Notes under the pieces: model-generated | The model's database searches: none | Seen by the model: only the letters and a program-made list of their open reading frames with translations | Told to the model about the DNA's origin: nothing | Shown here: piece after piece, positions 1 through 39,879 of the stretch | Numbering within the stretch: position 1 is the first letter of the stretch | Layout: every line of letters starts with the position of its first letter | Position numbers and translations under genes: made by a program | Assembly (NCBI GenBank): GCA_029552745.1 | Contig: JAKPDK010000186.1 | Coordinates: 1-39,879, forward strand | Reading direction: 5' to 3' | DNA: 39,879 nucleotides | Source: Candidatus Hydrogenedentota bacterium | GTDB taxonomy: Bacteria > Hydrogenedentota > Hydrogenedentia > Hydrogenedentales > SLHB01

Positions 1-72
1 GATTCAGGCGGGGGGCATGAATACGCGGACAGCCAGCAAGCAGAACTTGAATTTGTGGACGATGAAGATTAG
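1..72 (+). CDS. Small terminase 3' end (duplicate of 39739-39810)
   Basis: This is the last 23 codons and the TAG stop (70-72) of the small terminase gene, present here only because the window overlaps itself. The full gene is at 39229-39810. It should not be counted as a second gene or as a pseudogene. Confidence 0.85.
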   Translation, partial: DSGGGHEYADSQQAELEFVDDED

Positions 73-73
73 A

Positions 74-133
74 TTGTAGATTCATTTCATCGCGGCCCCT
101 CGTTGTAGGCGTCACGCTATTTTGAATCTACAA
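74..133. promoter_or_regulatory. Inverted repeat between small and large terminase genes
   Basis: A perfect 11-bp inverted repeat lies in the gap between the terminase genes. The left arm at 74-84 reads TTGTAGATTCA and the right arm at 123-133 reads TGAATCTACAA, with a 38-bp spacer. The right arm runs into an A-rich tract. No T-tract follows on either strand, so this is not an intrinsic terminator. By position it could be a terminase recognition site (cos or pac) or a protein-binding site. The same sequence recurs at the right end through the overlap. Confidence 0.5.
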
Positions 134-181
134 AAAAAAACAAAAAGCGAATTGACGATCAGACAATGAGGGGACGCACCT

Positions 182-22790: not shown

Positions 22791-22833
22791 TCGCTTCTTC
22801 AAAATCCGCATCTTTTAAGTCTGATAATTTCAT
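22771..22833 (-). pseudogene. Truncated 20-codon ORF at cargo island edge
   Basis: On the minus strand an ATG overlapping the stop of the Ala-repeat gene (ATGA) opens a reading frame of 20 codons starting MKLSDLKDAD and ending GVFFS. The last codons are read from the flanking repeat itself. This looks like the start of a third cargo gene cut off at the insertion boundary. It may still be translated by coupling, but a working product is unlikely. Confidence 0.45.
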
Positions 22834-23372
22834 TTCAGAGCATCCACCATCATTAGTAAGTTTACCTGTTCTTGATTCTCTCGCGCATAGTCGGCGGCAT
22901 CGGTGGCGGCTTCGGAGGTGGCACGGGTGGCATAGGCGGCAGCTCGGGCGGCATAGGTGGAGGCATAGGCGGCATCGGAGGCGGCATAGGCGGCGGCACG
23001 AGCGGCTTCGGAGGCGGCACGGGCGGCATAGGCGGCGTCACGGGTGGCTTCGGAGACGGCATAGGCGTTCTCTTTTGTGGGACTATTTAGCCATGCCTTA
23101 ACAGCATATAGAGCTTGTCGTGGTCTTTTATCGCCTGGACACTTCTCTTCAAAAATTGAAAGAACCTTGGATGCACAAAGCAAAGACCATCTGACGTTTT
23201 GTTCTAGTGTCGCTATTCGCACAAACACCCAGACTTTATCATCATAAGTCAGTTCTTTAAGCATGATGAAGTCTTCCAATGAACCATCAAAGTCCGGATA
23301 ATGCTTCAAATAATTATCTAATCGGTCTTTACACGGGCCAAGGTCTTTTATTTTTTCTGTGTTGATTCTCAT
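22830..23372 (-). CDS. Alanine-repeat protein, putative immunity protein (Imm5-like)
   Basis: A 180-residue protein. The N-terminal half is a compact helical domain (CKDRLDNYLKHYPDF, then a stretch ending CPGDKRPRQALYAVKAWL). Residues ~103-165 are a helical run of Ala-Ala-Tyr/Arg repeats such as AAYAARAASEAARAA. This pairing, with the P-x-D-x-R-P-R-x-A element just before an Ala-rich array, is the pattern of putative immunity proteins (Imm5-like) found on phages and plasmids. GAGGTGA gives a strong ribosome site. It lies on the opposite strand to the tail genes, inside the cargo island. The toxin or system it might counter is unknown. Confidence 0.6.
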   Translation of the reverse strand: MRINTEKIKDLGPCKDRLDNYLKHYPDFDGSLEDFIMLKELTYDDKVWVFVRIATLEQNVRWSLLCASKVLSIFEEKCPGDKRPRQALYAVKAWLNSPTKENAYAVSEATRDAAYAARAASEAARAAAYAASDAAYASTYAARAAAYATRATSEAATDAADYARENQEQVNLLMMVDALK

Positions 23373-23797: not shown

Positions 23798-23861
23798 TCT
23801 GCGCATCCTCATAGATCGTCAAACTTCTGCGCATCCTCATAGATCGTCAAACTTCTGCGCA
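23798..23861. repeat. 28-bp tandem direct repeat (2.3 copies)
   Basis: The 28-bp unit begins TCTGCGCATCC and runs through CATAGATCGTCAAAC. It occurs at 23798-23825 and 23826-23853 with eight bases of a third copy. It lies in the stretch 23640-24004, where I see no gene on either strand. Units are directly adjacent with no spacers, so this is not a CRISPR array. Confidence 0.85.
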
Positions 23862-32573: not shown

Positions 32574-32822
32574 ATGGCAAAACTCTTTACTTTACAAGAC
32601 TATATCGAACTTCGGACAGGTGCGGCGATTGCCCGTGACTTGGGGGTCGATGAACAAACGGTCTATTTCTGGAAGTCGAAAAGATCGGCACCGAAGCCGC
32701 ACACGGCGGCACGTCTTATCGCGCTGACAAATGGCCTTCTTTCTTGGGAAGGAATCTATCAACCTTTCGTTGATCATCATGTCGAGTCACAGCTTGAATT
32801 TGATTTCGGTCAAAAGAAGTAG
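32574..32822 (+). CDS. Cro-like helix-turn-helix regulator
   Basis: An 82-residue protein. The helix-turn-helix is AAIARDLGVDEQTVYFWKSK (residues 17-36), followed by the RSAPKPHTAARLIALTNG element typical of phage Cro/YdaS-type regulators, and a short tail. CAAAGGGGG precedes the ATG. It is the first rightward gene at the divergent promoter region and likely controls both promoters. No CI-type partner or integrase is nearby, so it is more probably a lytic timing switch than part of a lysogeny switch. Confidence 0.75.
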   Translation: MAKLFTLQDYIELRTGAAIARDLGVDEQTVYFWKSKRSAPKPHTAARLIALTNGLLSWEGIYQPFVDHHVESQLEFDFGQKK

Positions 32823-32831
32823 GGGACGGAT

Positions 32832-33617
32832 ATGTCAAAAATAGAAATATATAGAGGTGACTGTTTGGACGTTCTTGAATGGATTGAAGATAAGTCGATT
32901 GATCTTATTCTCACTGATCCACCTTATGGAACGACTGCTTGCAAGTGGGATACAGTTATTCCATTCGAGCCAATGTGGAAAGAGTTAAAGCGTATTCGCA
33001 AAGACAATGCGGCTTGTGTTTTGTTTGGGAGTGAGCCTTTTTCAAGTCACTTACGAATGAGCAACATTAAGGAGTTTAAATATGACTGGATTTGGAAAAA
33101 GAATGTTCCAACTGGCCACACCTTGGCAAAATGCAAACCCATGTCTTCCTATGAAATCATAAGCGTTTTTAGTCCGGCTAAAACATATCACGCTAGTCGA
33201 ACCACTCGCGCACTTAGGTATTACCCACAGGGTTTAGAAAAAAACAACAACGCCAAGACTAAAAAAGCAGAAAGTAATTGGTCAGACGTTTGTCACAATG
33301 AAACGCCAGGTAAATTTCGAGGCGACTACCTCGCTTATGAATTTAAGAACTATCCTAGAAACATTCTTGAATTTAAAGGCGAGGCAAATACCAGCCGACT
33401 TCATCCAACACAAAAACCCGTCCCTCTTCTTGAATATTTGATCAAGACCTACACTCTCGAAGGAGAAACGGTTCTCGACTTCACTATGGGGTCTGGCTCA
33501 ACTGGTGTAGCTTGCAAGAACTTAAACAGAAATTTCATCGGTATTGAAAAGGACGATAAGTATTTTGAAATAGCTAAGAAAAGAATTGAAGGGGCAAAGA
33601 ATGAACACACTACGTGA
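32832..33617 (+). CDS. DNA methyltransferase, beta-class N4/N6
   Basis: A 261-residue DNA methyltransferase. The catalytic motif DPPY is near the N-terminus (residues 29-32), and the AdoMet-binding FTMGSGSTG is near the C-terminus (217-225), preceded by RLHPTQKPVPLLEYLI. This order defines the beta class (adenine N6 or cytosine N4). No endonuclease gene is next to it, so it is an orphan enzyme, perhaps shielding phage DNA from host restriction. Codons such as ATA, AGA and TTA are commoner here than around it, suggesting later acquisition. The target sequence cannot be read from the gene. Confidence 0.9.
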   Translation: MSKIEIYRGDCLDVLEWIEDKSIDLILTDPPYGTTACKWDTVIPFEPMWKELKRIRKDNAACVLFGSEPFSSHLRMSNIKEFKYDWIWKKNVPTGHTLAKCKPMSSYEIISVFSPAKTYHASRTTRALRYYPQGLEKNNNAKTKKAESNWSDVCHNETPGKFRGDYLAYEFKNYPRNILEFKGEANTSRLHPTQKPVPLLEYLIKTYTLEGETVLDFTMGSGSTGVACKNLNRNFIGIEKDDKYFEIAKKRIEGAKNEHTT

Positions 33618-35892
33618 AGTGAAACGCTTCTATGATATGGGCTTTGCTATCCTTTGGTTATATCCAAAGTCAAAGCGGCCCATCGGTGAAGACTGGACAA
33701 CGGGGGATCGAAAGCCCTGGGAAGTCTTGCAAAAAACATTTAAAGAAGCAAACAACGTCGGCGTCAGGCTTGGGGCCGCATCGAAGTTCAAAGACGGCAC
33801 ATATCTATGTGTTCTTGATTGTGACGTGAAGTCCAGTGATCCGATTCACTTGAAAGAAATGGAAGTTGCACTTCACAATTTCTGTCCTTCGCATGAGTTC
33901 GCGCCGCGAGTTCTTTCGGGCCGAGGCGGGGGAAGTTGTCACTTTTATTTCAGAACACAAACACCACAACAATCGTTCAAAGCATTGAGGTCAAATCACA
34001 AAGTCAAAGTATTCATGCCGTCAGTTGATGCTTCAAAAACTGATCGTGAATATTTGACCGAGGATGAAATCAAAGCCGGATACCGAATGCGTCTTGCCTG
34101 GGAAGTCGATGTCTTCGGCGAAGGCAAGCAAGTCGTGATCCCGCCTTCAACCCATCCTGATTCGGGCCGCGCCTATCAATGGGAATCGCCGCTTCGTGAG
34201 TGGGACGGGATTCCACTTCACAAAAACTTTGAACCAAGTCGCGTTCGACTTCTCAAGAGTTCAAAAAAAGAAGTGAAGTTTGCTGACATTGATTTGTTTT
34301 CGGCCCCCGTGCCTGAAAAGTTCTATGATTTAATCACATCGGGCCGTGGGTTTGAAAAATATCCGTCACGTTCGGAGGCTATCTTTGCCGCTTTGAACGG
34401 CCTGATCATGGCGGGACTAACTGACGAACAAATCTTCACCGTGCTGACAGACCCGTCAAACTTCTTGAGTGAAAAACCCTTAGAAGCTGGCAAGGGTGAT
34501 CCGGTCGCCGCTGCAAGATGGCTTCAAAATCAAATCGACAAAATCAGAGACGAAAGATCGGCGAAGATTGCCTTTGAAGGCGAAGCCATCATTGATGATC
34601 TTGATGAAATGCTGGCCCTATCAGACGAAGAAGCTGAAGCGCAAGAAGCCGAACTTGTGTCGTGGCAAACAAGACTTCAAGGCACAAAAACCGGACAGTG
34701 GAAGAATACCGCACATAACTTGTATTTGATTCTGAAAAATCTAGGCGGCGAGACCGAACGGGTTGAAAGTTGTTTTGCCTATGATGAGTTCAATCAAGCA
34801 AATATCTACACGTTCGCACCGCCCTGGGGCGATGAATCCGATGTCGGGCGTGAACTCACCGACCTTGACGACATCCGAATCAAAACGTGGCTGTCTAAAG
34901 AATGGGGCATCGAAGCCAGCACTCAAGCCGTCGCCGACATAACCTTTCAACTTGGCAAAGAGAATGCGTTTCATCCGGTGCAACGATACTTGAAGTCGCT
35001 GAAATGGGACGGCAAAGAACGACTGGACTCAATGCTTCAAAAGTATTGCGGGGCGGTCGGTGACACAAGATACTTGTCAGCCGTAGGCCGAAAGTTCATG
35101 TGTGCGGCTGTCGCCCGCGTGTTTCACCCAGGCATCAAATACGATCATGTGATGATTCTCGAAGGCCCCCAAGGTGTGGGCAAGTCCACATTCGTTCAAA
35201 TCCTTTCGCACAAGTGGGGTTCTGATTCACTCGGCGACATCACAAATAAAGATGTTGTAGACAACATGCGCGGCAAATGGCTGATCGAACTCGGTGAACT
35301 TGCATCAATGAACCGCGCCGAAGCAAATGACCTAAAGGCTTTCATCACTCGACAATTTGATGTCGTACGAAAAGCCTTCGGGCGAAGGTCACAGACTTAT
35401 CCAAGACAGTGCGTATTTGTCGGCACAACAAACGACGACGAGTATTTGAAGGATGCAACGGGCGGGCGAAGATTTTGGCCCGTGCAAACAACGAAGTTCA
35501 ATATCCGCGCACTACTTCGTGACCGTGATCAGTTGTGGGCCGAAGCGGTTGTCACCTATGGGATGGGCGAAGCCCTTTTCTTAGACGATGAAGAAGTCAG
35601 GGACTACGCAAGCGGTGAACAGAAAGACCGTTTTGTTGTCGATGAAATCCAGACGCAAGTTCAAAGAGTGATTGAAGCTGAAGACTTCCCGAACGAATTT
35701 GATTTTGAAGACGTGTGGTCTCGCATGTCGATCACTGAAGGAAAACTTCAAAAATCGTGTGACTATCCAACGCAACTTCGGATCAAAAAAGCACTTCGAG
35801 TTCTTGGGTATCCGAAGGTGCGAAAACGGGGGCCGCAAGGCCGCGCCTTGGTGTGGCTGAAAGACCGTGAAACGACCTACAAAACGTGGTGA
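33601..35892 (+). CDS. Primase-polymerase / VapE-type helicase
   Basis: A 763-residue bifunctional replication protein. I start at ATG 33601 (AAGGGG upstream); it overlaps the methyltransferase by 17 bases. Residues ~1-200 form a primase-polymerase domain: GVRLGA, LDCD with D73 and D75, SGRGGGSCHFYF (H114), and KQVVIPPSTHPDSG. Residues ~450-700 form a VirE/VapE-type helicase: ILEGPQGVGKSTF (Walker A near 522-529), KWLIELGEL, and a late FVGTTNDDEYLKDATGGRRFWP. It likely primes and unwinds DNA at the adjoining origin candidate. Confidence 0.9.
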   Translation: MNTLREVKRFYDMGFAILWLYPKSKRPIGEDWTTGDRKPWEVLQKTFKEANNVGVRLGAASKFKDGTYLCVLDCDVKSSDPIHLKEMEVALHNFCPSHEFAPRVLSGRGGGSCHFYFRTQTPQQSFKALRSNHKVKVFMPSVDASKTDREYLTEDEIKAGYRMRLAWEVDVFGEGKQVVIPPSTHPDSGRAYQWESPLREWDGIPLHKNFEPSRVRLLKSSKKEVKFADIDLFSAPVPEKFYDLITSGRGFEKYPSRSEAIFAALNGLIMAGLTDEQIFTVLTDPSNFLSEKPLEAGKGDPVAAARWLQNQIDKIRDERSAKIAFEGEAIIDDLDEMLALSDEEAEAQEAELVSWQTRLQGTKTGQWKNTAHNLYLILKNLGGETERVESCFAYDEFNQANIYTFAPPWGDESDVGRELTDLDDIRIKTWLSKEWGIEASTQAVADITFQLGKENAFHPVQRYLKSLKWDGKERLDSMLQKYCGAVGDTRYLSAVGRKFMCAAVARVFHPGIKYDHVMILEGPQGVGKSTFVQILSHKWGSDSLGDITNKDVVDNMRGKWLIELGELASMNRAEANDLKAFITRQFDVVRKAFGRRSQTYPRQCVFVGTTNDDEYLKDATGGRRFWPVQTTKFNIRALLRDRDQLWAEAVVTYGMGEALFLDDEEVRDYASGEQKDRFVVDEIQTQVQRVIEAEDFPNEFDFEDVWSRMSITEGKLQKSCDYPTQLRIKKALRVLGYPKVRKRGPQGRALVWLKDRETTYKTW

Positions 35893-35897
35893 CAAAA

Positions 35898-36188
35898 GTG
35901 GGCAAGGTCTCTCGTTTTTGTCCAAGGTGGGCAAGGTCTTTTGCGATTTTGTGGGCAAGGTGGGATAAGTCGCGGGCAAAGTTTTTTGAAGAGACCTTGC
36001 CCGCGAAAGCGGTTGAAGTTTCAATAGTTTAGTTCACTTGGCAAAGTGGGCAAAGTGAAATGATACTGTTAGGAGTCTGATATAGTCAGATCGAATATAA
36101 GCGGTTTATAGGGATGTTTATAGGTTATAGCATTTTATATAAAGGGCTTTATAGAAAACGCCTTGTTTTCTTGCCCAACCTTGCCCAC
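35898..36188. other. Candidate replication origin: iterons plus AT-rich region
   Basis: The region 35893-36321 has no convincing gene. The 11-mer GTGGGCAAGGT or a near copy occurs forward at 35898, 35927, 35951, 35972 (GCGGGCAAAGT) and 36046 (GTGGGCAAAGT), and reversed at 35992-36004 and 36178-36188, with a further half site at 36170. Copies at 35972 and 35992-36004 form an inverted repeat. Between the sets is a very AT-rich stretch (36075-36160). Iterons beside AT-rich DNA, directly after the primase-helicase gene, are the standard look of an origin; a repressor-binding array is the main alternative. Confidence 0.65.
36105..36154 (+). repeat. AT-rich TTATAG repeats inside origin candidate
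   Basis: TTTATAG occurs at 36105-36111, 36117-36123 and 36148-36154, and GTTATAG at 36124-36130, with TTTTATATAA at 36133-36142. A small inverted repeat TCTGA/TCAGA (36076-36080 and 36086-36090) precedes them. Regular AT-rich repeats next to iterons fit a DNA-unwinding element. Confidence 0.6.
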
Positions 36189-36199
36189 CCCCTTTTTGT

Positions 36200-36240
36200 C
36201 GCCAAAAATTTCGACGGCAAAAAAACGGCAAAAAGCGGCA
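36200..36240 (+). repeat. CGGCAAAA short repeats after origin candidate
   Basis: The word CGGCAAAA occurs three times between about 36213 and 36242, each separated by a few bases, just downstream of the reversed iterons. It may be part of the same control region or a simple low-complexity stretch. No reading frame here looks real. Confidence 0.4.
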
Positions 36241-36321
36241 AAAGGTCGGCCCTCAAGGGGCAAATTTGTGGTATGAGAAATGCATATAGTTTGATGGGAT
36301 TTTTTTTGAAAGGATGTGACC

Positions 36322-36486
36322 ATGAAAACAAAATTGATTTTGACTTTGAACAACCCGTTGTTTGATTTGGGATGGCAAGCGCGTGTTGTTCATAACTTAG
36401 CCGAAGCATATCGGATCGTGCGTCTCATTGAACTAGGTGCTGGACGCCCGATCACTTTTCAGATACGAACAGAGTGTGCCGACTAA
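36322..36486 (+). CDS. 54-residue hypothetical protein
   Basis: A short gene missed by length cut-offs. AAAGGATG stands about eight bases before the ATG. The 54-residue product starts MKTKLILTLNNP and continues with a basic amphipathic helix (LAEAYRIVRLIELGAG) and a final strand. It is the first gene after the origin candidate and is followed, 22 bases on, by another small gene with its own ribosome site. The function is unknown. Confidence 0.55.
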   Translation: MKTKLILTLNNPLFDLGWQARVVHNLAEAYRIVRLIELGAGRPITFQIRTECAD

Positions 36487-39299: not shown

Positions 39300-39810
39300 G
39301 TCGAAGAAGAAAGTTCTTGCTGAAGAAGAACTGGACCGATGGCTTGCTGAAGGCGGCAAAAAAGAAGAAAAGGAAGACGGCGAAATCGACGGCCTAGTGG
39401 GGCGCGAACAACCGCTTTTCTTTTTCGGACCGCCGCCCGCAATCAAGCAACTATACACAGGCACAGACTACGACAAAGACTTTCACCCACAAGACCTTCT
39501 TGCACACATGCGAAACGGCAAGACAAGAAGTGAAATCATTGCGGGCTGGGGCATCACATATTCAAAATTCAATTCATGGCTTGATCAACATCCTGAACTT
39601 GCTGAAGCGTATGCGGTCGGCAAGCCCGCGTTCGACGCCTATCACAAGGCCGCACTTCGGCACGTTGCCTTCGGGCAAATGCCGAAAGCAAAAGAATACA
39701 GCGTTCACTTCATGCTGAAGAACTTTGCGGGCTTTGATGATTCAGGCGGGGGGCATGAATACGCGGACAGCCAGCAAGCAGAACTTGAATTTGTGGACGA
39801 TGAAGATTAG
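39229..39810 (+). CDS. terS: Terminase small subunit
   Basis: A 193-residue protein that recognises phage DNA for packaging. Residues 1-30 are strongly basic and 31-60 acidic. A helix-turn-helix-type region is at ~88-120 (LLAHMRNGKTRSEIIAGWGI, then FNSWLDQHPELAEAY), followed by long helices for ring formation and an acidic C-terminal tail (FVDDED), which would contact the large subunit. GGGGGTGA lies upstream of the ATG. The gene runs into the terminal overlap and, on the circle, sits 109 bp before the large terminase. Confidence 0.85.
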   Translation: MKKSTLKGKRHSKEKTAPVSRKAKSKKKVLAEEELDRWLAEGGKKEEKEDGEIDGLVGREQPLFFFGPPPAIKQLYTGTDYDKDFHPQDLLAHMRNGKTRSEIIAGWGITYSKFNSWLDQHPELAEAYAVGKPAFDAYHKAALRHVAFGQMPKAKEYSVHFMLKNFAGFDDSGGGHEYADSQQAELEFVDDED

Positions 39811-39879
39811 ATTGTAGATTCATTTCATCGCGGCCCCTCGTTGTAGGCGTCACGCTATTTTGAATCTACAAAAAAAAAC
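39739..39879. repeat. Right copy of 141-bp exact terminal direct repeat
   Basis: Identical to bases 1-141. It includes the end of the small terminase gene and the inverted repeat between the terminase genes. It shows the contig closes on itself; one copy should be trimmed before any numbering of the genome. Confidence 0.95.

Follow-up and report, generated by a model that had tools for sequence, protein, structure and literature searches.

The pri-rep-ori segment of the PICI EcCICFT073 drives plasmid maintenance, and its origin is an AT-rich region between two iteron sets located 3' of the initiator gene (PMC6092414). A 302-bp non-coding element of the Streptococcus thermophilus phage Sfi21 (the PER element) acts as an independent origin that is activated by infection (PMC6356513). 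SaPI Rep uses its C-terminal domain to recognise iterons 3' of its own gene, and in SCCmec the C-terminal domain of the initiator helicase Cch2 binds direct repeats downstream of the operon (PMC7581432).

The window, meaning the whole 39,879-bp stretch analysed here, is one entire contig. Its ends carry a perfect 141-bp direct repeat (window 1-141 = 39739-39879), so the contig is taken to be circular, with a closed length of 39,738 bp; a repeat of this size points to k-mer overlap in the assembly. Structural and packaging genes (terminase large subunit at 182-1447, terminase small subunit, major head, tape-measure and endolysin) are present together with replication genes (DNA polymerase, exonuclease and Gp2.5-like SSB). 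The contig is a complete circular tailed-phage genome within a bacterial assembly. On comparative grounds, the region at 35893-36190 is very probably its replication origin, of the SaPI/PICI and Sfi21 type and recognised by the adjacent initiator. The first-pass annotation had also read an origin here, and this reading is upheld by a PriRep1-like initiator, a 3' layout that recurs in VapE loci, and two experimentally supported origins that look alike.

The locus shares with SaPIbov1, SaPI1 and EcCICFT073 a related D5/VapE-type initiator helicase with a primase and a non-coding region directly 3' of the initiator gene in which two sets of element-specific iterons flank an AT-rich stretch. The window protein is also predicted to have a C-terminal winged helix, which may correspond to their C-terminal DNA-binding domain. 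Primase and helicase are fused in the window phage, whereas they can be separate or fused in PICIs, and its iteron is GGGCAAGGT; in EcCICFT073, the repeat scan of our survey peaks at the pri-rep stop with iterons GGTAGACA. A PICI is a satellite that takes most virion proteins from a helper phage. The window is instead a complete circular phage with its own terminase, major head, tape-measure, polymerase and SSB genes, so it has a replicon of the SaPI/PICI type but is no PICI.

The 302-bp origin of Sfi21 is annotated directly behind a DUF5906/Pox_D5 protein. It similarly consists of short repeats in both orientations around an AT-rich core with TATATAG, these being AGTAAC-type repeats on both sides of ATATATATAGAG, and its score in the repeat scan is tied with one other region. 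Sfi21 differs from the window phage in its repeat sequence and in infecting a Firmicute. Its protein matches Pox_D5 and DUF5906 but, unlike the window protein, neither the VapE nor the Prim-Pol model. SCCmec Cch2 is likewise an initiator helicase whose C-terminal domain reads downstream repeats, as the window protein may do, but it has just three 5-nt iterons and a separate primase complex (CCPol-MP), and it resides in a chromosomal cassette. Phage lambda also has iterons adjoining an AT-rich stretch. However, these lie within the O gene and O recruits the host DnaB, whereas the initiator proposed here would itself be the helicase. An earlier remark that phage origins with this layout are not known finds no support; the layout is not new, because PICIs and Sfi21 already have it. 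A small number of phages and phage satellites provide proven cases, and the layout recurs across many phages with differing site sequences.

Iterons and the AT-rich stretch

The features of the locus, in window coordinates, are the following.

32574-32822, + strand: small HTH (Cro-like) protein (HTH_28, 2.4e-4, under Pfam's cut-off; phrog_35, 1.6e-6)
33586-35892, + strand: Prim-Pol and VapE-like SF3/D5-type helicase, 768 aa, proposed self-loading initiator (Pfam domains, 7PDS)
35644-35859, + strand: C-terminal winged-helix domain, residues 687-758, predicted by AF2, proposed iteron reader
35893-36190, no strand: proposed replication origin (iterons and AT-rich stretch)
35900-35908, + strand: iteron GGGCAAGGT, exact
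35920-35928, + strand: degenerate iteron GTCCAAGGT, 9 bp ahead of the next site, same as the iteron core of relative L029
35929-35937, + strand: iteron GGGCAAGGT, exact
35953-35961, + strand: iteron GGGCAAGGT, exact
35962-35970, + strand: degenerate iteron GGGATAAGT, 9 bp behind the previous site
35974-35982, + strand: iteron GGGCAAAGT, one mismatch
35994-36002, - strand: iteron GGGCAAGGT, exact, inverted
36039-36047, + strand: degenerate iteron TGGCAAAGT, 9 bp ahead of the next site
36048-36056, + strand: iteron GGGCAAAGT, one mismatch
36060-36167, no strand: AT-rich putative melting region, 60-70% AT per 60-bp window, four TTATAG
36148-36162, + strand: TTTATAGAAAACGCC element, adjoining the right-hand iterons, kept in close relatives
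36168-36176, - strand: degenerate iteron GGGCAAGAA, read from the sequence
36178-36186, - strand: iteron GGGCAAGGT, exact, inverted, right-hand set

Seven GGGCAARGT sites (five on the + strand and two on the - strand) occur in 35893-36321, where 0.015 are expected from 2000 dinucleotide shuffles that never held more than 2. Five are exact copies of GGGCAAGGT (three +, two -) and two are GGGCAAAGT, both +, and the remaining 39.4 kb of the genome have only eight one-mismatch matches, all dispersed. Four degenerate copies adjoin the main sites, and three of them pair in tandem with a main site at a distance of 9 bp (35920 with 35929, 35953 with 35962, 36039 with 36048). The sites are mostly forward on the left and reverse on the right, with an AT stretch (~36060-36170, 60-70% AT) between them that contains TTATAG four times (36106, 36118, 36125 and 36149; 0.14 expected). 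The first iteron begins 7 bp past the stop of the primase-helicase gene. These counts bear out what had been noticed by eye, namely at least seven sites in both orientations around repeated TTATAG next to this gene. The organised region had been drawn as 430 bp long, which holds for the iterons and AT stretch at 35893-36190 but not for the last 130 bp (36190-36321), where iterons are absent and only CGGCAAAAA repeats precede the ORF starting at 36322. The functional interval is better given as 35893-36190. The CGGCAAAAA-type repeats lie at 36214-36250, between the right-hand iterons and that ORF, and are outside the iteron family.

Operators are another possible role for inverted sites that precede an ORF; through them, the Cro-like HTH protein or another phage regulator would control the genes from 36322 at a locus that is no origin. 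The relatives L001 and L030 have also kept the HTH gene, and origin and operator roles can overlap. However, the sites cluster nowhere else in the genome, and none is found in the intergenic stretch ahead of the HTH gene, which is the usual place for Cro-like action. Binding by the Cro-like regulator was the case that the first-pass annotation had set against its own reading. Promoter-like matches are not above chance, and across loci the cluster is tied to the VapE stop while the downstream genes differ. We consider operators without an origin very unlikely.

The region folds far better than its shuffles (z -6.4) and includes one terminator-like site (35916-35936), as a structured RNA or a transcription-termination region behind the VapE gene might. 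The strong folding arises because inverted copies of one site are present. Copies in the same orientation at 9-bp distance, the commonest spacing in the survey, form no hairpin alone. Terminator-like matches in the region are not above chance, and the region has no Rfam match, which leaves this explanation extremely unlikely. For the origin reading, a DnaA-dependent origin of the iteron-plasmid type, with DnaA boxes beside the iterons, was considered and rejected; even with one mismatch allowed, 35893-36321 contains no DnaA box. GC skew, which had been proposed as a check, was rejected as an origin marker. Its extremes at ~31,969 and ~23,081 coincide with changes of gene orientation, and it does not switch at the proposed origin, about which it is uninformative.

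By raw repeat score, a coding repeat at ~22.7-23.1 kb ranks above the origin region in the window. It is a G-rich degenerate tandem repeat with units of 21, 33 and 42 bp (22885-23061) within the minus-strand ORF 22830-23372, and it seems to encode an Ala-rich repeat. A perfect 28-bp tandem repeat with 2.3 copies of TCTGCGCATCCTCATAGATCGTCAAACT occurs at 23798-23861. A similarity search with the origin DNA returned only a short VapE coding match among phages and no match among plasmids.

The primase-helicase and its proposed action

The 768-aa protein belongs to the D5/VapE type of SF3 helicases, as does its relative SaPI PriRep. It matches the Pfam models VapE-like_dom (1.7e-76), Prim-Pol (9e-18) and DUF5906 (7e-10), and its top PDB match by phmmer is 7PDS, 'PriRep1 with dsDNA' (2.4e-55). 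Foldseek with the predicted structure also finds 7PDS (7.6e-31). A VIA-align superposition on this entry covers 394 residues of 358-763 (Z 32.6, rmsd 5.4, 31% identity), and the second-best PDB entry is far lower at Z 15.5. The N-terminus resembles the Prim-Pol of the archaeal plasmid pRN1 (Z 13.4). Sixty related host genomes were searched for the primase-helicase, and the sole match is the window itself. An N6/N4 DNA methyltransferase gene (window 32832-33617) is located directly 5' of the primase-helicase gene and overlaps its start.

By phmmer against the PDB and by Pfam scan, the last 87 residues have no meaningful match. The AF2 model assigns them helices at 687-696, 707-714 and 727-739 and strands at 744-749 and 752-758 (block pLDDT 57-87), which together predict a winged helix, although the placement of domains is uncertain in a model built from eight input sequences with mean pLDDT 79.9 and pTM 0.45. 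The C-terminal winged helix may be the iteron reader. If so, the Prim-Pol/VapE protein would contact both iteron sets, left and right, through its winged-helix C-termini, and hexamers could assemble on both sides of the AT-rich stretch. The TTATAG stretch between the sets would then melt, and the hexamers would load there and unwind outward. Priming may be carried out by the protein's own Prim-Pol domain, with synthesis presumably continued by the phage-encoded DNA polymerase and Gp2.5-like SSB.

Another phage or host protein could instead read the iterons and recruit the adjacent VapE helicase to the origin. Among loci, iteron similarity rises with identity of the C-terminal domain (CTD) and at least as well with identity of the helicase core (partial Mantel rank correlations of 0.064 for CTD given core and 0.092 for core given CTD), so this comparison does not single out the CTD, and it leaves room for a separate reader. 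Against such a protein, the interval has no DnaA boxes, and in many phages the position of the cluster is fixed relative to the VapE gene. Both SaPI Rep and Cch2 recognise iterons through C-terminal parts of their own (PMC7581432). A separate reader is very unlikely, and recognition by the adjacent initiator is the favoured reading.

Proposed origins in close relatives and across VapE loci

Four close relatives (L196, L029, L030 and L001) keep the position and layout of the proposed origin but have an altered iteron. It is GTCCAAGGT/GTCCATAGT in L196 (78%), GTCCAAGGTGA in L029 (71%), GTACTAGGTGA in L001 (71%), and GTCCAAGGTG in few, degenerate copies in L030 (64%). L029 and L001 retain the TATAGAAA element by the right-hand set, and L196 and L030 have it in modified form. 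One half-site in the window phage is itself GTCCAAGGT. Judged from sequence comparison, the altered iterons and this half-site are as expected if the mode of recognition is common to these phages and its specificity drifts. The window phage and its close relatives, with GGGCAAGGT, GTCCAAGGT and GTACTAGGT, would form a natural series for studying how SF3 initiators read their sites.

The wider survey scored both-strand 7-mer repetition in every 400-450-bp window of VapE loci from viral contigs, phage records and genome contigs. In a first pass, the best repeat window was at the VapE stop in 21 of 34 loci (2.3 expected). Of an enlarged set of 125 non-redundant VapE loci (<72% identity), 74 have this window starting between -250 and +700 of the stop, where 14.1 would be expected; z>=6 is reached near the stop in 79 loci versus 29 elsewhere. 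The repeats thus counted suggest that a 3' iteron layout is frequent among VapE phages. A strong 3' cluster is absent in 46 of the 125 loci, including L030 and the Bacteroidetes-host loci L021, L024 and L027. Among these 46, some Pseudomonas-type phages (L018 and L035) have their repeats one further small gene downstream of VapE. L021, L024 and L027 are Bacteroides/Elizabethkingia VapE phages in which VapE is not followed by an iteron cluster; L024 and L027 have another gene immediately after VapE, and the origin of these phages must be located at a different place.

Top iteron words mostly differ between the surveyed loci. Three features nevertheless recur, all of them drawn from these very loci, so that an independent set is needed to confirm them: same-orientation repeats are spaced 9 bp apart in 59 of 79 regions (14.4 in control windows), this being the commonest spacing; the top word matches GKNNAC in 35 of 79 (2.3, maximum 7, among letter-shuffled words); and TATAG[AG]AA is present in 25% of iteron regions and 1.2% elsewhere. 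The element TATAGAAA occurs in 7 of 34 loci (0.6 in shuffles). The window iteron GGGCAAGGT matches GKNNA but not GKNNAC. In the papers available, we did not find the 9-bp spacing, the GKNNAC archetype or the TATAGRAA element described, and these three, the last in the melting region, are what is new at the family level.

The chances are about even that a single ancient architecture underlies the origins of most VapE/Prim-Pol phages, in which 9-bp tandem iterons of a loose GKNNAC archetype and a TATAGRAA/CGCGTATA melting element combine a fast-changing, element-specific iteron with a stable helicase and layout. If this is true, then the choice of iteron would constitute a replication-specificity (incompatibility) code beside the initiator gene. 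Independently of this, the region at 35893-36190 provides a candidate origin that can be tested, in a group of phages for which no mapped origin was found. In L031, the VapE ORF (end up to 7481) has a C-terminus that is extended by a second, winged-helix-like segment, and the iteron of this locus, AAGGTGTGGACAC, is longer than usual.
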